Source: a virus. From it: 36,297 nt of DNA. The stretch covers positions 1 to 36,297 of the IMG/VR virus record IMGVR_UViG_3300017527_001024; one strand, written 5' to 3'. The stretch's first letter is position 1. Each line of letters opens with the position of its first letter. Position numbers and translations under genes: made by a program. Below, in pieces: positions 414 to 34,776 of this stretch. Below the pieces are notes generated by a model. That model was not told where the DNA came from and made no database searches. It saw only the letters and a list, made by a program, of their open reading frames with translations.

Positions 414-507
414 GCGATCTGGCTGGTGTCCTCCGTCCTTTTACTGGTGCATCCCATTCTACTAGCCTTTTGCCAAACGGAGCTGGGTTCAATCCCCGGG
501 GATCGCT
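414..507 (+). other. tRNA-like element (acceptor plus T-arm), possibly a remnant
   Basis: Bases 414-420 (GCGATCT) can pair with 500-506 (GGATCGC), six Watson-Crick pairs and one G-U. Directly inside lies a T-arm: stem 483-487/495-499 and the 7-base loop TTCAATC, a good match to the conserved T-loop. The 62 bases between do not fold into a clear D-arm or a standard 7-base anticodon loop; the best inner hairpin is CTGGT/ACTAG with a 12-base loop (444-465). It may be an intron-bearing, decayed or mimic tRNA, or an attachment-site relic, or chance. No integrase gene is present to support an attachment site. Confidence 0.3.
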
Positions 508-510
508 TCT

Positions 511-741
511 ATGTCTCTGTCTACGGTGAAAACATTTCGATGCGCGAATCCTCGTTGTGATTTTTATTTTCATGCGAGGAAGAGGGGGTTGCGTCGGTTT
601 TGTAGTGAGCGATGTCGGGTGAGGATGTCGAATCATCGTAACAGGAAATATAGAGCAAGGTGGAATCGACAAAAGTATCGTCGGTTAATAAAGGAGGGAT
701 TGAATACAGATGTCAAGCAGAAAGGAAAGGATTTGCCGTAG
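511..741 (+). CDS. Small CGNR-like zinc-finger protein
   Basis: 76 residues. Cysteines 11, 16, 31 and 35 (CANPRC, then CSERC) form a C-x4-C-x14-C-x3-C pattern close to the CGNR zinc finger, followed by an Arg/Lys-rich helix (about residues 36-62) suited to nucleic-acid binding. A weak GGGGAT ribosome site lies about seven bases before ATG 511. It overlaps the next mini-gene by 32 bases. The same CANP-x-C knuckle recurs in the protein at 1042-1365, so the two are probably paralogues. It is likely a DNA- or RNA-binding early protein; the target is unknown. Confidence 0.75.
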   Translation: MSLSTVKTFRCANPRCDFYFHARKRGLRRFCSERCRVRMSNHRNRKYRARWNRQKYRRLIKEGLNTDVKQKGKDLP

Positions 742-805
742 TTGTGGAAAACTCTGTTGGGGCCATTACTGCCGTGAATGTTGGCGTGTTTTTATGCATG
801 GGTGA
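710..805 (+). CDS. 31-residue zinc-ribbon mini-protein
   Basis: ATG 710 to TGA 803-805, preceded by AAGGAGGG at 691-698. The peptide has four to five cysteines in CRSC and CREC pairs with intervening Cys and His, the signature of a single small zinc ribbon. It lies in a dense series of similar mini-genes. The function is unknown; the short length makes the call moderate. Confidence 0.55.
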   Translation: MSSRKERICRSCGKLCWGHYCRECWRVFMHG

Positions 806-812
806 TTTTATC

Positions 813-932
813 ATGAAACGATGTATGTTGTGCGGTAAATTTAAAAAATGTCTGGTCATATGTGAGGATTGTTTTAACGAGGTACTGAATAAAGATGCGT
901 ATGAAGATGCAATTACACCATTACCAAAATAA
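813..932 (+). CDS. 39-residue zinc-ribbon mini-protein
   Basis: A GGTGAT ribosome site at 801-806 sits seven bases before ATG 813, which decides the start over longer in-frame options. The protein begins MKRCMLCGKFKKC and has CxxC at residues 4-7 and CEDC at 17-20, a classic one-knuckle zinc ribbon, followed by a short acidic tail. Member of the mini-protein series; specific role unknown. Confidence 0.65.
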   Translation: MKRCMLCGKFKKCLVICEDCFNEVLNKDAYEDAITPLPK

Positions 933-935
933 GGG

Positions 936-1049
936 GTGATTACAACGGAAACAAGATATTGTGTGAATTGTGGAAGATGTTGGGCTTGTGGTAAAAGAAT
1001 ACCTGATTGCAAATGTAATCATAAGGAGAAAGTGAAAGGTAATGGGTAA
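936..1049 (+). CDS. 37-residue Cys-rich mini-protein with unusual start
   Basis: The frame has CVNC, CWAC and CKC clusters (seven cysteines in all) and ends at TAA 1047-1049, overlapping the next start by eight bases. A perfect GGGGTGAT ribosome site at 933-940 precedes it, but no ATG follows. GTG 936 lies inside the site itself, so initiation at ATT 939 or ACG 945, or at the GTG, must be considered. The Cys pattern matches the zinc-ribbon neighbours. Confidence 0.5.
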   Translation: MITTETRYCVNCGRCWACGKRIPDCKCNHKEKVKGNG

Positions 1050-1365
1050 TCCATTAGGTCAAGTAATAGAGGTTTGTCCATTTTGTAATTCAGAATATAT
1101 ACGATTTGCATATCCTGATAATTTAGGGATGGGAACGATTTGTAAAGTTTGTCGAAAGCGTAGTGATAGAGAAAGCCATAATAAATTTAGGAGATGGAAA
1201 GCACCAAGTTTTGTTGAGTGTGCAAATCCAGGATGTGCTAATGGTTTTTATAAGGGTGGTCACCAATTATATTGTGGTGAATGTATGGATTATTTCAGAT
1301 TAAAAAAGATGAGGGAATATTCAAGAGAATGGAGAAGGAAAAATAAGGGGGAACTTAAACCTTGA
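1042..1365 (+). CDS. Double zinc-ribbon protein
   Basis: 107 residues with two zinc-binding units: C12-x2-C15 with C34-x2-C37, and C60-x4-C65 (CANPGC) with C78-x2-C81, followed by a basic helix rich in Arg and Trp (SREWRRKNKG). The second unit resembles the protein at 511-741. It ends with a TTGA overlap into the next gene, so translation is likely coupled. Probably nucleic-acid binding; partner unknown. Confidence 0.75.
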   Translation: MGNPLGQVIEVCPFCNSEYIRFAYPDNLGMGTICKVCRKRSDRESHNKFRRWKAPSFVECANPGCANGFYKGGHQLYCGECMDYFRLKKMREYSREWRRKNKGELKP

Positions 1366-1589
1366 AACCGTTAGAAGTTGAAGATGCAAATCCCTGCATG
1401 AAATGTGGAAGTGTTCAATGTGCTTTTTGCAGTCAAGATGTTATTGATGCTTTCAATGGGTTTCACGAAGATGTCGCTAAATATATTGAACACGATGGTA
1501 GGGTTAGATGGATTAAATATTATGCACTTTTGAAGAAGTGGTTTCCTGCTGTTGTGAAGATAATTAATAAGGAGGAAGTGAAACCATGA
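1362..1589 (+). CDS. 75-residue zinc-ribbon protein
   Basis: Starts at TTG 1362, overlapping the previous stop by four bases, with a GGGG-containing site upstream. CMKC and CAFC (residues 12-23) make a tight zinc knuckle near the N-terminus; the rest is a helical segment rich in Trp, Tyr and Lys. It ends in an ATGA overlap with the next gene. Function unknown. Confidence 0.7.
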   Translation: MKPLEVEDANPCMKCGSVQCAFCSQDVIDAFNGFHEDVAKYIEHDGRVRWIKYYALLKKWFPAVVKIINKEEVKP

Positions 1590-1708
1590 AGGAAGGATTC
1601 TGTAGAGAATGTGGTCGGTATCAATGGTTGTTTGAACCGAGGGATATTTGTGAAAGATGTGCTGAACCTGTGAATAAAAAACTTAAGAGGGAACTGAATG
1701 GTAAATGA
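1586..1708 (+). CDS. 40-residue zinc-ribbon mini-protein
   Basis: GGAGGAAG at 1571-1578 precedes ATG 1586 at good spacing. The peptide starts MKEGFCRECGRYQ and holds CREC and CERC pairs 12 residues apart, followed by a basic tail. It overlaps both neighbours and is the last of seven consecutive genes with paired cysteines. Confidence 0.65.
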   Translation: MKEGFCRECGRYQWLFEPRDICERCAEPVNKKLKRELNGK

Positions 1709-2130: not shown

Positions 2131-2159
2131 CTATTTAAATAACAACCAGAGGTGGTGAG
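2131..2159 (+). promoter_or_regulatory. TATA-like box and ribosome site before the primase gene
   Basis: CTATTTAAAT at 2131-2140 resembles an archaeal TATA box. GAGGTGGTGAG at 2149-2159 is a strong ribosome site, but it is 25 bases from the first ATG (2184) and only about eight from an in-frame ATA at 2166. Confidence 0.4.
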
Positions 2160-2183
2160 AGAAATATAAAACGAGAAGAGTTA

Positions 2184-4271
2184 ATGGAACAGTGGGTCTG
2201 GTGGTATTGGAACCATGGTTTTAGTATCATCCCCGTGAAGCAGAATAAGGCTCCTAATATAGATCGATGGGAAGACTTCCAGTATCGACGACCCACAGAA
2301 AATCAGATCCAGAAATGGCTGGATTCAAAGAAATTCCAAAATGTGGGTATTATCTGCGGTGCAGTATCCGACAATTTGGTGGTCATCGATATCGATGATG
2401 CCTCTATTGTCGATGAATTAGATTTAAACCTTGATAAGATCTCTGAATATGGATGGGTTGCGAGGACGGGAAAAGGCTATCATATTTATCTGAAAGATAT
2501 AGGAAATCCGGGGGGCCCACAACGATATCGTCGATTAAAACTCGACAAATGCGCCAATGGATCCTATGTCGTCGCTCCACCAAGTAAGCATCAGAACACC
2601 GCCATCTATTCTTTTATGAATATCTCAAAGCCGGAGGATCTCCATCCATTGAAGGAACGAGATGTTGGACGGATGTGGAATCAGATCATCGAACAGGTTG
2701 CTCATCTGAAAGGGGAACAGGTGCAGACACCTACTGTCTTTTCGGAGAATGGCGATGCTGATTGTGTGGAGCTTATCAAGAAAGGTGTTGATGAAGGGCA
2801 ACGGAATGAGGCAGCGTTTGCATTGGCGAACTATTATAAAAACATAAAGAAGCTTTCAGCGACTGAGGTGGAGACGTTGGTTAAAAAGTGGAATACAGAG
2901 AACAAACCAAGTCTTCCAATTGGTGAGATCTCAGCGGTTATCAACTCAGCGATGAAACCAAAGTATAAGACAGGGTGTCCTCGTATACGGGAGATTGGAT
3001 TTTGTCCGTATAAGACAACGAAGGAATGCCCTTTCATCAACAAAGAGATCCCACGGAAACATTTTAGTTCTGCCCCACAATCTCTTCAGGATGTATATAC
3101 ACGTATCGGTAAATGGTTATTTGTTCCCGATACCGATAGGATTGATGTTGTCCTTGCGGTTGCTTTATCAAATCAATATAAGGGGCTGCCATTATGGTTG
3201 TTTATCATCGGTAGTTCAGGTGATGCAAAATCAGAGATCGTTGCCACATTAGATGGTATGCCGAATCTCATTAAGATCGATCAGATTACACCAAAGACAT
3301 TAGCATCTGGTGCTAAGGAAGGAGGGAAAAAGGTTCACGATCTTGGTGAGGAGCTTCAAAACAAGTCGACAATCCTCTTGTTTAAGGATCTCGCTTGTCT
3401 AACAACATTGAAGTCTGATGATAAACGGGAGATCTGGGGGCAGTTCCGTACGCTCTATGATGGGGAGATCAATAAGAAGACCGGATCTGGCGTACACACT
3501 TTATATAAGAACTGTCATGTAACGATTATCGCTTGTATGACTAAACTGTTTAAACAAGAACAGCTGGTGAAGGAGCAGCTTGGTACCCGTGAGCTTCAAT
3601 ATGAGATCTGGGCGAATCCTAAACATGATATAGAGAAAATGAAGAAGGCGATGTCTCATCGTGGGAAGGAAAAAGAGATGAGGGAGGAGCTCCGTGAGAC
3701 GGTGCAGGGGTTTCTTTCTACAAAAGAGTTCGATGAAAGTATTGTGATGCCTGCGGACATCTTTGATTTTTTGCTGAAGAAATGTGCTAAACTGCGGTTG
3801 CTTCGTGCTACGGCATATAATGATTATTATTCTCCTCGTGCTGAGCTTATTGGTGATGCTGATGCAGAGGTTACTACTCGGGTGATGCAACAATTTGATG
3901 TGTTGTATTGTTCATTAAAAAGCTTAGACGAAGAGTATCCTTTAGAGAAATTCAAAAAAATAATAGAGAATGTTGTGAAATCTAGTAGTCATCCTATTAG
4001 GTATAAATTGTACAACTTTTTTGAGAAAAAATCGTTCGAATGGTATAATTTAAACCAGTTGCATAGTGAGTTACGTATCGGACGAAAGAGCATCAGCGGA
4101 CAATGTGAGATCCTTTGGAATCTTGATTATCTTGAAAAACAAAATAGGGAGGAAGAGGTATATTTTGGGAACAAATGGCAGGATGTTGTCTACTATAAGA
4201 AAAAAAGCCCATTGACTCCCGCCAAAAACGATGAGGATTGGCATAATAAAGGTCAGCTGTTCTTTAAATAA
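2184..4271 (+). CDS. Viral primase-polymerase with superfamily 3-like ATPase domain
   Basis: 695 residues. The N-terminal bifunctional primase-polymerase domain (about 1-160) shows GFSIIPVK, the catalytic D69-x-D71 in VVIDIDD, and His100 in GKGYHIYL. A primase C-terminal helical part follows (GQRNEAAFALANYY), then a C-x7-C-type segment near 263-283 (GCPRIREIGFCPY) that could bind zinc. The ATPase has Walker A GSSGDAKS near 343 and a Walker-B-like strand STILLFKDL near 397. The C-terminus (about 600-680) looks like a winged helix for DNA binding. It would prime and unwind the viral genome. The strongest ribosome site suggests a start at ATA 2166, adding six residues. Base composition becomes more AT-rich from about 3900, hinting at a mosaic C-terminus. 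Confidence 0.93.
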   Translation: MEQWVWWYWNHGFSIIPVKQNKAPNIDRWEDFQYRRPTENQIQKWLDSKKFQNVGIICGAVSDNLVVIDIDDASIVDELDLNLDKISEYGWVARTGKGYHIYLKDIGNPGGPQRYRRLKLDKCANGSYVVAPPSKHQNTAIYSFMNISKPEDLHPLKERDVGRMWNQIIEQVAHLKGEQVQTPTVFSENGDADCVELIKKGVDEGQRNEAAFALANYYKNIKKLSATEVETLVKKWNTENKPSLPIGEISAVINSAMKPKYKTGCPRIREIGFCPYKTTKECPFINKEIPRKHFSSAPQSLQDVYTRIGKWLFVPDTDRIDVVLAVALSNQYKGLPLWLFIIGSSGDAKSEIVATLDGMPNLIKIDQITPKTLASGAKEGGKKVHDLGEELQNKSTILLFKDLACLTTLKSDDKREIWGQFRTLYDGEINKKTGSGVHTLYKNCHVTIIACMTKLFKQEQLVKEQLGTRELQYEIWANPKHDIEKMKKAMSHRGKEKEMREELRETVQGFLSTKEFDESIVMPADIFDFLLKKCAKLRLLRATAYNDYYSPRAELIGDADAEVTTRVMQQFDVLYCSLKSLDEEYPLEKFKKIIENVVKSSSHPIRYKLYNFFEKKSFEWYNLNQLHSELRIGRKSISGQCEILWNLDYLEKQNREEEVYFGNKWQDVVYYKKKSPLTPAKNDEDWHNKGQLFFK

Positions 4272-18748: not shown

Positions 18749-20488
18749 TTAATAAACCTCCGATGTTAACGTATAAACAGAATTTAATTTTTTAGATGTA
18801 ATCGTATATGGTTCCTCAGTCTCACTTCGTACAACAAATGATATGTATTTTCCACTGAATGAAAATGGGAACCGTAGAGGAAACTTGTTTGGGACTCCGG
18901 AGATATCTCCCGGTTTTGCTTCAATTGTATATGCTTCCTCCGATGTTGGATAAATAAAATATGGTTGTTCCAACGATGGTTGCATCTGTATCTTTTCAAC
19001 CGTTGAATACCATATTGCATAAACAGATACACTATCATCAATTGACATCGTATCTGATATACTACGGTTATATGTTATCGGACTGATAGCTACTGAATCC
19101 GATATAGAAAGTGTATCTGATGCCGTTCTCATATACGCTGCAACACTTGAGAGACTATCAGAAATATTTAATGTATCAGATGCCGTTCGCAGATATGCCA
19201 AAAGAGTTGATGCACTATCCGAGATACTCAATGTATCTGTTGCCGTCCGTAGATATGTTACCAATGCCACAGCATTGTCAGATATCGATAACGTGTCGCT
19301 AGCCGTTCTAATAAATGCAGCCAGTAGAGATACAGAATCAGATATTGTAAGTGTGTCACTTGCTGTCCGTAGATAAGTCGCAACTGATGATACAGAATCC
19401 GAGATGTTTAATGTATCTGTTGCTGTTCGTAGATATGTTATCAATGTAGATGCTGAATCTGAAATTGATAGTGTGTCACTAGCCGTCCGTAGATACGTTA
19501 CCAATGCTACAGCTGAATCAGAGATTGATAATGTATCAGTAATACTCCGTAGGTATGTCGCTACAGTTGAAACGCTATCAGAGATATTTAATGTATCAGT
19601 AGCTGTTATCAGTTTTATAAGTATAGATGAAACCGAATCCGATATTGTAAGTATTTCAGATGCAGTTCGTATTGTCGTTGCAACAGCAGACACTGAATCT
19701 GAAATTGAAAGGGTATCAGATGCTGTCCGTATATATGGTACAACTGTTGAAACACTATCAGAAATATTGAGTGTCTCAACGGCAGTCGCAAATTGAACCA
19801 TCACCGTAGAAATCGAATCTGAAATAGAAAGCGTTTCAGTTGCAGTTTTTATATAAGTTGCAACTGTTGAAACACCGTCAGATATTGATAATGTATCAGA
19901 TGCTGTACGAAGATATGCCGCCACAGATGAAACATTGTCAGATATTGAAAACGTGTCGCTGGCTGCTCGTATATATGGCACAAGAGTAGACACACTGTCT
20001 GAAATAGATAATGTCTCTGATGCTGTTCGTAATATTGTTGATACAGCAGCTGCAGAATCAGATATAGACATTGTATCGGCAGCTGTACGAATATATGGCA
20101 CAACAGTTCCCACTGCATCAGAAATACTTAATGTCTCAGCAGCAGTACGTGCATAGACAGCAAGTAATGCAACACTATCAGCAATAGAAAGCGTATCAGT
20201 TGGTAATGTCTCAGCGAGGGCTAGATTTACCTCTTCAGCAGCTCCTGTGACATCCAATGTAAATGTTTCAATCTTATAATTCCCAGAATCAAATGACCAT
20301 ACCTGTATTGTACTACCATCTGTTGCATAATCCTGTATATCTATCAGATAATATCCACTAGCATCTGTTGTACCAGTAGTTGTACCCTGTGGTGCTGTTG
20401 TATCTTTTATATAAACTGTTGCACCAGCGACAGGTGTACCACCATCTGTTACCTGCCCATAGACAGGATATGCATTATCCAACGTCAT
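18749..20488 (-). CDS. Repeat-rich surface stalk protein (ISDS repeats)
   Basis: 579 residues from ATG 20488, which overlaps the previous stop (ATGA). A carboxypeptidase-regulatory-like beta domain (about 5-92, VYGQVTDGGTPVAGATVYI) is followed by about 20 near-identical 20-residue repeats of the form ASDTLSISDSVSTVATYLRT, then a beta-rich C-terminal domain of about 85 residues. Each repeat alternates a beta-like half and a helical half, suggesting a long solenoid or stalk. It is encoded between two host-contact proteins; probably a spacer that presents them. Similar ISDS repeats occur in archaeal surface proteins. Confidence 0.75.
   Translation of the reverse strand: MTLDNAYPVYGQVTDGGTPVAGATVYIKDTTAPQGTTTGTTDASGYYLIDIQDYATDGSTIQVWSFDSGNYKIETFTLDVTGAAEEVNLALAETLPTDTLSIADSVALLAVYARTAAETLSISDAVGTVVPYIRTAADTMSISDSAAAVSTILRTASETLSISDSVSTLVPYIRAASDTFSISDNVSSVAAYLRTASDTLSISDGVSTVATYIKTATETLSISDSISTVMVQFATAVETLNISDSVSTVVPYIRTASDTLSISDSVSAVATTIRTASEILTISDSVSSILIKLITATDTLNISDSVSTVATYLRSITDTLSISDSAVALVTYLRTASDTLSISDSASTLITYLRTATDTLNISDSVSSVATYLRTASDTLTISDSVSLLAAFIRTASDTLSISDNAVALVTYLRTATDTLSISDSASTLLAYLRTASDTLNISDSLSSVAAYMRTASDTLSISDSVAISPITYNRSISDTMSIDDSVSVYAIWYSTVEKIQMQPSLEQPYFIYPTSEEAYTIEAKPGDISGVPNKFPLRFPFSFSGKYISFVVRSETEEPYTITSKKLNSVYTLTSEVY
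19003..20205 (-). repeat. Array of about 20 tandem 60-base repeats
   Basis: In-frame direct repeats encoding A-S/T-D/E-T-L-S-I-S-D-S units. Copies share phase exactly at 60 bases but differ in many synonymous positions, so the array is old or under protein-level selection rather than freshly amplified. Confidence 0.85.
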
Positions 20489-22986
20489 ATCGCCCAAGTC
20501 CTATCAGTAGATATATGTGTAAGACATACATCCCACCGATGTATATTCACATTTGTGTTTCCAGCGAAATGCGAAATCCAGAAGTTCCATTTGAAATCTG
20601 TTGTATTCCACAATGCTATAAAATATCCAGAGGCAAGCCCAATTGATGTATTTGCAGCAGATAAATCTGTCTTCGTTGCATTTGCCCAACTTGTATAGTT
20701 GTTACCAGCATCAACATCAACCAGTGTAATCGTGCGTGCTTTGTTGTATCCCATTTCTGTATTGTTGGTCATGTTGAATGTCTGATTTCCGACTGCATCG
20801 GTAAGATATGATTTCACTGCATCAAATGTATTAATACTCCAGTTTCCACCATCCCCACCATGATGACTATAATTCCACCAGTTCCCAGATGCATTGAGTA
20901 TCGCTAGATATTCTGCTCCCTCATCGAATCCTGTAATATTCTTTGCAACATGCCATGCTGATACATTTTGTCCAAGCCATGTAAAATAGTCGATACCATT
21001 GTTTCGTATGGTTGTATTCGCAAAAACTTCATCATCTTCTGCTTCAGGCTGTTCAGCCCCAAAAGTCATAAAGGTATCTGTCTGGTTTTCACTATGATAT
21101 GATGCATTCATCCATGATTGATTTCGAGCGATATCAGAAAATCGTATCTCATCCTCAACACCTACAAACTCCCTACCACCAGCAGAACGATCACTAAAAT
21201 ACATAGCTTCAGATGGAAACGATGGTGCAGCAATACTCGTTGACTTTTTATATAATGTTGCATTGACATTAAATTCTACAATATCAGGACCACCATCATA
21301 AGACATAGTGACACGTGACCATTCATTAAGTGTTGCAGCAAGTGTATCCTTTGCTCCATTTACATACCACTGAAACGACGGAGCACCATATTGGATAAAT
21401 GTACCTTGTTGTCCACCAGTTGCAGTCCATTGAGATATAAAATATCGAGCACCCGTCTGTGTATATACCCATGCTTCCAAACTATATGTATCTTCAGATG
21501 CAAAAATCTGCGGTAATACAATACTATCATCACTACCATCAAATGTTACAGCATATCCAATTTTTCCAGTCTGCTGATAAGATGGATTACCTGCATCCCC
21601 GGTTGCATCATTATCGTTACTGGTGCTATCATCAATACCAGCGTCATTGGAACCATTTAGATGATAGACACCGAGATAATGTGAATCCCATACCCCCTCT
21701 GGATTGTGACCAGTTGTAGCATCTACATTATTATAATAACAAAAAAAACTATAATCGCTTCCGGATGGCAAACCCTCAGATATATTTACCCACAGATAAC
21801 AATTCCCACTATCATCCCATTTTTCTATCTCATGTAAAAATACTGTTGAATTATCAGCACCGAGAAACCGGATACTCTTACTATTGTCAATATTCCATGT
21901 ACTATTATCTATCGCAACAAGTATCGGAAAATTAGTGAGAGTTGTTTCGATATAATCTGATTCAACGGTAACGACTCTATAATTACTCCAACCAGCATCA
22001 GTAATTGTTTCAGTTGTAAAACTATAGGTATCATTGTCCCACAAACCATATTCGTCAGTAGTATTACTACTCCAATAATATTTTGTCGAATACGAAGTAA
22101 ATACTGATGTACTATTAGAAAATGTTGCATTATATGAATCATTGTTCCATGCAATATCTTCCCAACTTCCAGAGGCATTTGTTCTAAATGTTTGATTCAT
22201 ACTATACCCAAACTCATCATCGACCGTAATATTTAAATCTGGATTCAAAGAAATATCAACAGCACCATCTGAAGGAACTGGGACACTATTTATCGGCAAC
22301 ATTTTATAATTAACATATAAAATATATCTATGATTAACTATCTCAGTTAAACTAGCTGGATCGCTATATGTCGGGTATCCATTTAAAACAGTTTGATACC
22401 AACCACTACCACCACTAGCTGCATCAGAACGCAATGCAACCGTATAAGTTTCACCTGCATTAACCACTAAATGGTCTGCTTCAATACCAAACCTATATTC
22501 CGTTCCATCTACCAATAAAAAAGGAGTAATAAATGGTAATTTCAACCAATAAACAGATTCATTACCTGCTGCAAGTTTTTCTTCTGTTATCGACATTAAG
22601 TCACCATTTGAATCATAGATGACCCCAGAAGTTTTTGTTGTACCGTTAGTACTCCAAATTTTTGCATTCAATACGACAGCATATTTATCTGAACCACCAT
22701 TGAATGTATAATTACCAGCTCGAATCCGGGTATATTTATTACCACCAGCAAATACATTACAAGTATTAGAAGCATCACCAGCAATATTGACACCAAACCA
22801 ATTAGCTGTTCTTTCCGTTGGGGTAAAATCCTCAAACAACAATGGAATACCAGAAAGACCAAGACTAGATGCCATCAAAATAGCTACAACCTTCCCACGA
22901 TGTTTTCGTTTCGATAGAGCATACACTAAACCAGTTGAAATACAAATCAGAGAAAGCAATAATGCAGCTATGATCATAGCATCCAT
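20485..22986 (-). CDS. Membrane-anchored DUF2341/LamG surface protein
   Basis: 833 residues, with GGTGAAT before the ATG. Two N-terminal membrane helices (about 4-24 and 33-49) surround SKRKHRGK and end in LLFEDFTP, the module shared with the 525-residue protein. Then an Ig/fibronectin-like part, a DUF2341 domain (about 325-450, KSIRFLGADNSTVF, YYNNVDATTG) and a LamG/concanavalin-like lectin domain (about 460-640). The C-terminal 190 residues are Asn/Trp-rich. Dozens of N-x-S/T sequons suggest N-glycosylation outside an archaeal cell. It probably binds host glycans. DUF2341-LamG proteins are typical of archaeal surfaces. Confidence 0.85.
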   Translation of the reverse strand: MDAMIIAALLLSLICISTGLVYALSKRKHRGKVVAILMASSLGLSGIPLLFEDFTPTERTANWFGVNIAGDASNTCNVFAGGNKYTRIRAGNYTFNGGSDKYAVVLNAKIWSTNGTTKTSGVIYDSNGDLMSITEEKLAAGNESVYWLKLPFITPFLLVDGTEYRFGIEADHLVVNAGETYTVALRSDAASGGSGWYQTVLNGYPTYSDPASLTEIVNHRYILYVNYKMLPINSVPVPSDGAVDISLNPDLNITVDDEFGYSMNQTFRTNASGSWEDIAWNNDSYNATFSNSTSVFTSYSTKYYWSSNTTDEYGLWDNDTYSFTTETITDAGWSNYRVVTVESDYIETTLTNFPILVAIDNSTWNIDNSKSIRFLGADNSTVFLHEIEKWDDSGNCYLWVNISEGLPSGSDYSFFCYYNNVDATTGHNPEGVWDSHYLGVYHLNGSNDAGIDDSTSNDNDATGDAGNPSYQQTGKIGYAVTFDGSDDSIVLPQIFASEDTYSLEAWVYTQTGARYFISQWTATGGQQGTFIQYGAPSFQWYVNGAKDTLAATLNEWSRVTMSYDGGPDIVEFNVNATLYKKSTSIAAPSFPSEAMYFSDRSAGGREFVGVEDEIRFSDIARNQSWMNASYHSENQTDTFMTFGAEQPEAEDDEVFANTTIRNNGIDYFTWLGQNVSAWHVAKNITGFDEGAEYLAILNASGNWWNYSHHGGDGGNWSINTFDAVKSYLTDAVGNQTFNMTNNTEMGYNKARTITLVDVDAGNNYTSWANATKTDLSAANTSIGLASGYFIALWNTTDFKWNFWISHFAGNTNVNIHRWDVCLTHISTDRTWAI

Positions 22987-30746: not shown

Positions 30747-30780
30747 ATATATATAGGTGTCATAACCAAAAGATTTAAAT
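30747..30780 (-). promoter_or_regulatory. Possible promoter for packaging and structural genes
   Basis: Two TATA-like sequences are present leftward, TATTTAAAT (about 30772-30780) and CTATATATATT (about 30746-30756), in the only gene-free gap before the terminase block. The first would place the transcript start near 30751, 14 bases before ATG 30737. Confidence 0.4.
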
Positions 30781-30993
30781 ACCAAGTCGTTTTTTTTCCT
30801 CTTTTATTAGTTTTTGTTCCTTCTGGAAGTCTTTACACGCACCTCCGAAGAAATCAGTAGTACCAAGTGTCCGTAAACGACGCATTCGGATCCTTTTCTT
30901 AAGATCATGAGCAATTTTTGCACATTTATATCCACAATACATCTGATTATACGTCTTCCGTTCGAAAAAACCTCTACAAATCTTACAATACAA
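30775..30993 (-). CDS. Small zinc-finger protein
   Basis: 72 residues if started at TTG 30993, which lies seven bases after GGAGGT (31001-31006); a TTG at 31008 lies before that site. Contains CKIC and YCGYKC (C-x2-C ... C-x3-C) followed by a basic helix (KKRIRMRRLR), like the left-arm zinc proteins. The stop codon falls in the TATA-like sequence. Probably nucleic-acid binding. Confidence 0.7.
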   Translation of the reverse strand: MYCKICRGFFERKTYNQMYCGYKCAKIAHDLKKRIRMRRLRTLGTTDFFGGACKDFQKEQKLIKEEKKRLGI

Positions 30994-31014
30994 AATAAAT
31001 ACCTCCAAATTTTT

Positions 31015-31120: not shown

Positions 31121-31552
31121 CTACACGACGACGAATTGATACCATAGAAATGTAAATATAAACCATACAATGAAATACAGCAGATAATGACCCTTCATAT
31201 AGTTGTCTCTGTCAACAGAGTCTAAATAGGAAACCTCATACCATGCATAAAACAAGTTTATCGTTCCAACAGCTCCAAATCCATAAGCCAGAGAACGACT
31301 ATACATAAACATAAGAGTAGCAAGAAAAACACAAACAACGCCAGCCACCAGTCCTCCTGAGAGAAGAAACCGGTTTCTATTGCTAATTGTGCCGGAATAA
31401 TCGCACCTAAGACTAGGTATCCAACCACGATAAAACCACAGCCTAATAGAAGAACTGCATCCCTGAAACGATGCTTCGATATAATGTCCATATTCATGCA
31501 CCACAAATCCTATAATCCACGCCAACACCAAGGCAAGGAGATAGTTAATCAT
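31121..31552 (-). CDS. Membrane protein with HEYGH protease motif (M50-like)
   Basis: 143 residues with about four membrane segments (1-19, 65-85, 90-105, 122-140). HEYGH at residues 19-23 lies at the end of the first helix, as in site-2 (M50-type) intramembrane metalloproteases. A second metal ligand may come from the D/N residues near 105-115 (YLDSVDRDN), but the usual NPxxD is not seen. It could cut a membrane-bound regulator or a viral surface protein. ATGATT start overlaps the previous gene by eight bases. Confidence 0.6.
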   Translation of the reverse strand: MINYLLALVLAWIIGFVVHEYGHYIEASFQGCSSSIRLWFYRGWIPSLRCDYSGTISNRNRFLLSGGLVAGVVCVFLATLMFMYSRSLAYGFGAVGTINLFYAWYEVSYLDSVDRDNYMKGHYLLYFIVWFIFTFLWYQFVVV

Positions 31553-31770: not shown

Positions 31771-31857
31771 TCAAATCACCCCAAGAATAAGAACACACAG
31801 AATCATCAACAACACCCAAAATATTGCTAAAAAACACCACCACTCAGAATCATCCAT
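31771..31857 (-). CDS. 28-residue membrane peptide
   Basis: ATG 31857 overlapping the previous stop by one base, with GGAGGAAT upstream. Short acidic N-terminus (MDDSEWWC) then one hydrophobic helix of about 20 residues. Role unknown. Confidence 0.55.
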   Translation of the reverse strand: MDDSEWWCFLAIFWVLLMILCVLILGVI

Positions 31858-31967
31858 CAGGATTCCTCCTCCACTCTGACATCAACAACAGACTCATATT
31901 CCTGTTTCATTGGATTCCACCGTAAACAAAGTTCCCATATTCTTAATGATATTTTCATAGAAGCCAT
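31857..31967 (-). CDS. 36-residue peptide
   Basis: ATG 31967 overlaps the previous stop; the upstream GGAGGAATCC would serve as ribosome site. Amphipathic start (MASMKISLRIWELCLRW) and an acidic end. Unrecognised; supported by tight packing. Confidence 0.5.
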   Translation of the reverse strand: MASMKISLRIWELCLRWNPMKQEYESVVDVRVEEES

Positions 31968-32158
31968 CAGGATTCCTCCTCCAGATTAAAGAAATGACGA
32001 ATAAACCATCTACCACCATGGATGCCAGATTTTTCTATCTCCTCAAGCCACTCACGAGCAGCAGAACGCAACTCATCACCATATATGAGAGAAGGGTCTT
32101 TAGGATACATCTCAGATTTAATCTCCAAATCACGAAGTGTCTTCAACTTCTTAGTCAT
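31967..32158 (-). CDS. 63-residue acidic helical protein
   Basis: ATGA overlap with the upstream gene. Helical, acidic, with a Trp-rich middle (AAREWLEEIEKSGIHGGRWF). No family recognised. Confidence 0.6.
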   Translation of the reverse strand: MTKKLKTLRDLEIKSEMYPKDPSLIYGDELRSAAREWLEEIEKSGIHGGRWFIRHFFNLEEES

Positions 32159-33447: not shown

Positions 33448-33822
33448 TTACATCACTCCAGCGAAGAGTTTTTTAAAATTACATCTATCTTTATTATATT
33501 TGTTTAATTTTTCTCTATTTAAATTATAATATTCTTTATACCAAAGAAGTCTTTCTTCCCTATGATTATAATAATATCTCCTATGAATCTCTGCAGATTT
33601 CTGAGGGTGTGTTTTTTCCCATTTTTTTTGTTTGGCATAATTCGTTCTTTTAGCATAACGTCGAGCACGTTCTCGTGCTCTCTCAGGATTATCTTGGTCC
33701 CACTTTTTTCTCTTAATATAATCACATTTTTTACATATATGTCTCACACCAAATTTTTTCCCTTTTTCTTTATAAAATTCAGACAACTCCTTCTGCTTAT
33801 GACAATGACTACAACGCTTCAA
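33448..33822 (-). CDS. Zinc-ribbon protein with basic repeats
   Basis: 124 residues, TTG start at 33822. N-terminal C4-x2-C7 and C30-x2-C33 with KELSEFYKEKGKKFG between, the pattern of HNH-associated or phage zinc-ribbon proteins. The rest is Arg/Lys/Tyr-rich repeats (RYAKRTNYAKQKKWEK). No HNH catalytic residues are seen. Probably binds nucleic acid. Confidence 0.75.
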   Translation of the reverse strand: MKRCSHCHKQKELSEFYKEKGKKFGVRHICKKCDYIKRKKWDQDNPERARERARRYAKRTNYAKQKKWEKTHPQKSAEIHRRYYYNHREERLLWYKEYYNLNREKLNKYNKDRCNFKKLFAGVM

Positions 33823-34285: not shown

Positions 34286-34408
34286 CTACTCCACACTCCA
34301 ACCGGGCAACTGACCCATAGTCTCAGAAAAACACTTCCGACATAAGCTATTACCCTCATAGACAACCTCAGCAGCCTTCTCACAATAGATACAGGAAATA
34401 AAGGTCAT
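34286..34408 (-). CDS. 40-residue zinc-ribbon protein
   Basis: ATG 34408, one-base overlap with the upstream stop, GGAGT upstream. CIYC and CRKC pairs 14 residues apart form one zinc ribbon. Ends with TAG. A right-arm relative of the left-arm mini-proteins. Confidence 0.65.
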   Translation of the reverse strand: MTFISCIYCEKAAEVVYEGNSLCRKCFSETMGQLPGWSVE

Positions 34409-34776
34409 CAATATCGACTCCATACATCAGAAACCATATTATTTTCTTCATTCCAAAACATAATAACCAAAGATTTCAAATCCTTATCACGAATCTTTTT
34501 AATTTCACGAGTCCTAATCTCATTCAAAAACATAGTACCAATCAACGGATGATATATACCAGCACCATGGATATTTTGAGAATGTTTACGTTCCCGTTGT
34601 ATATCTACACTACCTTCTGTTTCAATGTTAGCATGACGAGCAATATCAGAAATCTTTTCATATTTCTTTTGAGCAGCACGAAGTTTCTTCTTACAATCTG
34701 AACAACCATATGTTAACCACACCTGCAAATCATTAGCCTTCTTAGCCTTCACACATACATGAGTATGAATTGACAT
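34408..34776 (-). CDS. 122-residue protein with Cys pair
   Basis: ATG 34776 follows AAAGGTGG at good spacing. N-terminus MSIHTHVCVKAKKAND, then CSDC (TYGCSDCKKKLRAAQ), a His/Cys set that might bind zinc. The middle and C-terminus are basic and helical with GAGIYHPLIGTMFL. Family unknown. Confidence 0.65.
   Translation of the reverse strand: MSIHTHVCVKAKKANDLQVWLTYGCSDCKKKLRAAQKKYEKISDIARHANIETEGSVDIQRERKHSQNIHGAGIYHPLIGTMFLNEIRTREIKKIRDKDLKSLVIMFWNEENNMVSDVWSRY

Follow-up and report, generated by a model that had tools for sequence, protein, structure and literature searches.

The left end of this viral genome raises the question of why a row of very small genes, all encoding cysteine pairs, should stand directly ahead of a primase, and what their products may do. 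The window, that is, the whole stretch of DNA analysed, is 36,297 bases long and constitutes the whole viral record. Transcription of its left part, with small genes and then the primase, runs rightward; that of the structural genes and right arm runs leftward. Seven consecutive ORFs of 31–107 codons had been described in the left part, each with paired cysteines. All seven were found, on the + strand, and every one has at least two pairs, spaced as CxxC, CxxxC or CxxxxC. The seven (g1 to g7) and the genes downstream are as follows.

511–741, + strand: g1, an ORF of 76 residues, very basic, with CANPRC...FCSERC followed by a long basic helix; treble clef predicted.
710–805, + strand: g2, an ORF of 31 residues, CRSCGKLCWGHYCREC; strong SD sequence (aaaggaggga); no family match.
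813–932, + strand: g3, 39 residues, CMLCGKFKKCLVICEDCF; like the gene at 34286–34411 and weakly like archaeal uS14 type Z.
936–1049, + strand: g4, 37 residues, CVNCGRCWACG...CKC (six Cys); GTG start uncertain; weak Zn_Ribbon_1 match (E 0.0086).
1042–1365, + strand: g5, 107 residues in two modules, a ribbon-like N-terminal one (CPFC/CKVC) and a g1-related C-terminal one (CANPGC/CGEC plus basic helix).
1362–1589, + strand: g6, 75 residues, TTG start, CMKCGSVQCAFC near the N-terminus; SD sequence aagggggaa; no family.
1586–1708, + strand: g7, 40 residues, double-CxxC (CRECG...CERC); weak DZR/DZR_2 matches (E 0.005–0.02), below cut-off.
1698–1817, + strand: next ORF of the operon, 39 residues, no Cys.
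2184–4271, + strand: Prim-Pol primase with PriCT_1 (PF09250, E 9.5e-19; PF08708, E 1.6e-4), downstream of the array.

The array is tightly coupled. From g1 to g7, neighbouring genes are joined in order by an overlap of 32 nt, gaps of 7 and 3 nt, and overlaps of 8, 4 and 4 nt, and g7 overlaps the Cys-free ORF at 1698–1817 by 11 nt. SD-like sequences lie ahead of five genes (710, 813, 1042, 1362 and 1586), with none ahead of 511, and the start of g4 (936) is uncertain because the SD-like GGGGTGAT overlaps its GTG.

Two sites carry a hint of non-standard start codons or start-codon changes: an ACG at 945 that follows GGGGTGAT in ORF 936, and an ATA codon at 2166, at which the SD-like AGGTGGTGA (window 2150–2184) aims and which lies in frame with the first ATG of the primase, 18 nt before it. 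Upstream of the array, window 414–507 contains a tRNA-like element with acceptor stem and T-arm (GCGATCT...CTGGGTTCAATCCCCGG GGATCGC), whose end lies 3 nt ahead of the start of g1. As a tRNA this element was rejected: there was no Rfam tRNA match and folding was no better than that of shuffles (z 0.12), so it is possibly due to chance or a decayed att-type remnant.

Cysteines make up 8.9% of the array proteins (36 of 405 residues) but 1.2% (98 of 8,094) of the products of 22 large genes in the window (binomial P about 5e-20). A mechanical chain search returned six such genes in a row here; it took the longest GTG ORF for 813–932 and so passed over that gene, which brings the count to seven when read from its ATG. 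Elsewhere the same search gave no run longer than three (202 other loci, 2.7 Mb) or two (120 Markov-simulated sequences). Among the annotated CDS of five archaeal tailed viruses (HF2, BJ1, HSTV-1, Hardycor1 and psiM2; first 50 kb, mainly non-structural parts entered), the longest run was two with at least two pairs per gene and three with at least one pair. Seven uninterrupted Cys-pair genes in a row are unusual.

Codon-usage scores were positive and above those of the reverse frames in six of the seven ORFs. The coding status of g2 (710–805) is the weakest of the seven because its own-frame score was negative (−0.29 bits per codon). This short ORF with its poor score, and the uncertain start at 936, are what could be cited for some of the seven being chance ORFs in a non-coding leader; we find that reading scarcely credible, given that no run of this length occurred in the simulations or in the 2.7 Mb of other loci and that six frames outscored their reverse strands.

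The structural set comprises a terminase, a portal (phrog_146, E 3e-32), a capsid (phrog_267, E 5e-6), a head-protease-like protein and a tail protein (phrog_290), and a 907-residue protein has the size and position expected of a tape measure; the virus is therefore a tailed one. A protein encoded on the − strand at 18749–20497 is made of repeated ‘RTASDTLSISDSVS’ units with a period of about 60 nt, probably a fibre or surface repeat. The preliminary description had assumed an archaeal host, which has gained indirect support: the primase matched 3 of 72,556 plasmids, all three archaeal. These matches support such a host without proving it, and the virus is probably archaeal.

Close relatives did not emerge. 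Viral-contig scans with the primase, g5, capsid and portal returned no relative from collections that may omit very near records, and the terminase scan returned distant relatives only (34–35% at best), which share no other window protein beyond chance-level matches. Against 84,980 genomes, the terminase matched distant bacterial prophage terminases, mostly of Clostridia (28% at best). Of the four loci that a Prim-Pol motif scan returned, three had genuine primases, though distant (about 27–30% identity to the window primase), and no Cys-pair array stood beside the primase in these nearest viral-contig primase relatives.

A fold can be suggested for g1. Its AlphaFold2 model (mean pLDDT 78; about 80–92 over residues 11–60) has a hairpin (7–10/19–22), a helix (33–71) and cysteines at 11/16 and 31/35, giving a predicted treble clef: a putative zinc knuckle, a β-hairpin, and a helix with the second Cys pair near its start. 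The alignment behind the model held four sequences, one of them fetched with the CANPxC pattern, and the resemblance is partly selected because that sequence came in through the motif. The CANPxC scan itself gave two matches, one of them a NinG-like protein. Fold searches with g1 returned E-values that were all above 0.05. The PDB neighbours were both weak, 3h0n (DUF1470) and then YacG (second; probability 0.18), and the viral neighbours were mostly HNH nucleases, together with several short stand-alone proteins of 42–94 residues. We rejected a zf-CGNR/DUF1470 finger for g1, which has CRVR in place of CGNR and gave no reported zf-CGNR match at E 10; the 3h0n match is a weak likeness of fold and sequence.

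The best phage sequence match to g1 was a stand-alone 76-residue protein of a Pantoea phage, AAM37_gp46 (E 0.1; 36% identity over 56 residues), whose family is present in 85 phage records. Proteins of this type (phrog_17137) share with g1 the length of 76 residues and the arrangement CAN-x-x-C...KRG-x-x-RFCS-x-x-C, but their hosts are bacterial, and g1 has no match to phrog_17137 itself. YacG, a 65-residue zinc protein that binds GyrB (PMC10886550), is likewise a small zinc protein, a gyrase inhibitor of the TRASH/FCS treble-clef kind, but it is bacterial and its GyrB-contacting tail was not recognised in g1. Treble-clef families including S14, HNH/EndoVII and YacG/TRASH have been reviewed (PMC4999995).

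A CANPxC knuckle with a basic helix had been reported in at least two of the genes, and this held for 511–741 and the C-terminal half of 1042–1365. With every Cys held in place, the likeness between g1 and the C-terminal half of g5 scored z 5.5 and was reached by 1 of 2,000 shuffles; the single-sequence model of g5 was of low confidence (pLDDT 52). As the C-terminal half of g5 resembles g1, the array would have grown partly by duplication. The leaders of g5, g6 and g7 are also alike (15–18 of 25 nt shared, where all pairs average 9.8, s.d. 1.8), which fits duplication, although convergence of SD sites could explain the likeness too. An origin partly through duplication and divergence is part of the explanation we prefer, to which as a whole we give an even chance. 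The label ‘zinc ribbon’, applied earlier to all seven, is right in part: it suits the ribbon-like N-terminal half of g5, and less well g1, a predicted treble clef, or the treble-clef-like C-terminal half of g5.

In the remaining five the picture is sparser. No Pfam or NCBIfam family passed its curated cut-off for any of the seven, and g2, g3, g4, g6 and g7 appear to be minimal double-CxxC or Cys-cluster proteins without a recognisable family. The Cys clusters of g4 (CxxCxxCxxC, six Cys in 37 residues) and g6 (CxxC-x4-CxxC) point to no particular metal. Such clusters, with a weak Fer4_12 match of g3 (E 0.09), could suggest metal or redox proteins, g4 and g6 being Cys-cluster peptides that bind Fe–S or buffer zinc instead of fingers. 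We rate this highly unlikely: g2, g3, g4, g6 and g7 have CxxCG knuckles typical of Zn sites, and no ferredoxin family matched above cut-off. Taken together, our results support a description of the seven as consecutive small metal-binding genes of one operon, the metal probably being Zn, among which g1 and the C-terminal half of g5 at least are related.

Further Cys-pair genes had been noted in the right arm. This holds in part: two clear pairs are present in those at 30775, 33448 and 34286, listed here; 34779 and 35203 have compact Cys clusters (CCELCFDC and CIRRCAFKC), and a single pair was counted in 34408 and in 35018.

30775–31008, − strand: gene like the zinc part of NinG/HNH proteins, CKIC...YCGYKC; phrog_1333 and phrog_13750 (E 1.5e-5), phrog_171 NinG/Rap (E 0.004).
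33448–33822, − strand: N-terminal Zn part like that of endonuclease VII, CSHC...CKKC; phrog_1035 endonuclease VII (E 4.5e-9).
34286–34411, − strand: g3-like double-CxxC protein of 41 residues (z 3.1 against g3).

The Pfam NinG match of 30775 (E 0.005; 17.2 versus 25.4 bits) lies below cut-off. A full endonuclease VII was rejected for 33448, as the DHDH-type catalytic residues between the Cys pairs are absent from CSHCHKQKELSEFYKEKGKKFGVRHICKKC, read directly. A NinG/Rap nuclease was likewise rejected for g1, g5 and 30775: at 76–107 residues these share with the zinc module of NinG/Rap and HNH nucleases the Cys spacing, the basic helix and the fold-search neighbours, but lack the catalytic C-terminal half. 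The array could then consist of remnants or stand-alone Zn parts of HNH, NinG or endonuclease VII homing or recombination nucleases, now without function, as the resemblance of g1, 30775 and 33448 to such Zn parts and the missing catalytic motif of 33448 would allow. That seems unlikely to us, as the array retains start–stop coupling, SD sites and intact frames, five of its seven genes have no nuclease resemblance, and similar stand-alone proteins are widespread in phages.

Two other features of the right arm were observed. An exact 20-nt duplication (31854–31873 and 31964–31983) covers the ribosome-binding sites of two small genes, and a small membrane-type protein on the − strand at 31121–31552 contains the HExGH-like motif VHEYGHYIEA, reminiscent of site-2-type metalloproteases, with no family match at the thresholds used.

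Single-sequence searches gave weak matches to ribosomal proteins: the C-terminus of g5 to yeast eS31 (E 7e-4), g3 to archaeal uS14 (E 0.12) and g7 to eL37 (E 0.09). No match to the Pfam ribosomal S27, S14 or L37 profiles was reported at E 10, a setting at which HMMER filters drop most weak matches. The eS31 match of g5 was gone after a few non-Cys substitutions, in a query with a handful of residues changed by hand as opposed to a full shuffle control. Mimicry of eS31 by the g5 C-terminus was rejected, as no ribosomal family profile matched, and ribosomal mimicry was dropped as a claim, the matches being weak, fragile and mostly a matter of Cys spacing. Defence models likewise gave no convincing match to the array proteins; the only ones, PADLOC matches of g5 to PDC-M62B (E 0.02–0.04), were taken as chance, and a defence or anti-defence role was set aside.

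These likenesses bear on a reading in which the array is a host-takeover toolkit, in which every mini-protein would bind a host machine of its own, be it RNA polymerase, the ribosome or a defence complex. Short, diverse genes in an early-looking operon, as in host-takeover clusters generally, speak for it, as do the faint eS31, uS14 and eL37 matches; against it stand the profile and editing results above and the lack of any convincing defence or polymerase match, and we hold it as a tentative possibility. Its stronger form, a tandemly expanded, diversifying operon that would act as a modular kit with one module per host complex, ribosomal zinc-knuckle mimicry included, strikes us as improbable. 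An adaptor role toward host RNA polymerase, ribosome or defence proteins is supported neither way by our results.

The closest parallels lie in archaeal viruses. Haloviruses carry 21–23 CxxC genes, which are unevenly distributed and for the most part lie outside the virion module, and Hardycor1 has three consecutively (PMC7230728, PMC7911831). The array matches this class of CxxC microproteins (under about 100 residues, outside the virion module), six of the seven being shorter than 100 residues, with the structural genes on the opposite strand. As in HF1/HF2, Serpecor1 and Hardycor1, many such genes are tightly packed and some lie directly upstream of replication genes: the HF2 CxxC genes at 31215–31334 and 31797–31916 precede PolB, and the array precedes the primase. 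Unlike in the haloviruses, the run here is seven, and no clear relationship links the sequences. As many small halovirus CxxC proteins have already been published, what is new is how long the run is. AFV1p06, an archaeal-virus zinc microprotein with experimentally shown DNA binding (PMC3541406), is also small and viral, but has a C2H2-type fold, not a four-Cys one.

We consider it an even bet that the array is an early operon of zinc microproteins that bind nucleic acid or protein in support of replication and host takeover. On this reading, the left arm of a probably archaeal tailed virus would hold an early or accessory operon of seven translationally coupled microproteins, each probably folding around one or two structural metal sites, most likely Zn2+ to judge from the cysteines. 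Their position suggests that they may be made early, before the Prim-Pol primase. Both g1 and the C-terminal half of g5 would probably be stand-alone treble-clef, basic-helix modules like the Zn part of NinG/HNH nucleases and like single small proteins in many phages, the nuclease half having been lost or never had. Their likeliest ligands would be nucleic acid itself or an enzyme acting on it (compare YacG and gyrase), with an accessory part in viral replication or recombination. The remaining five would be minimal double-CxxC modules that most likely contact viral or host proteins, with any choice of partner a guess.

Among the genes of archaeal viruses that recur without an explanation are those for small CxxC proteins. 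A single compact operon of seven such genes, with a recognisable treble clef and an internal duplicate among them, offers a handy set for systematic interaction tests, and such tests could reveal the role of the small CxxC class.
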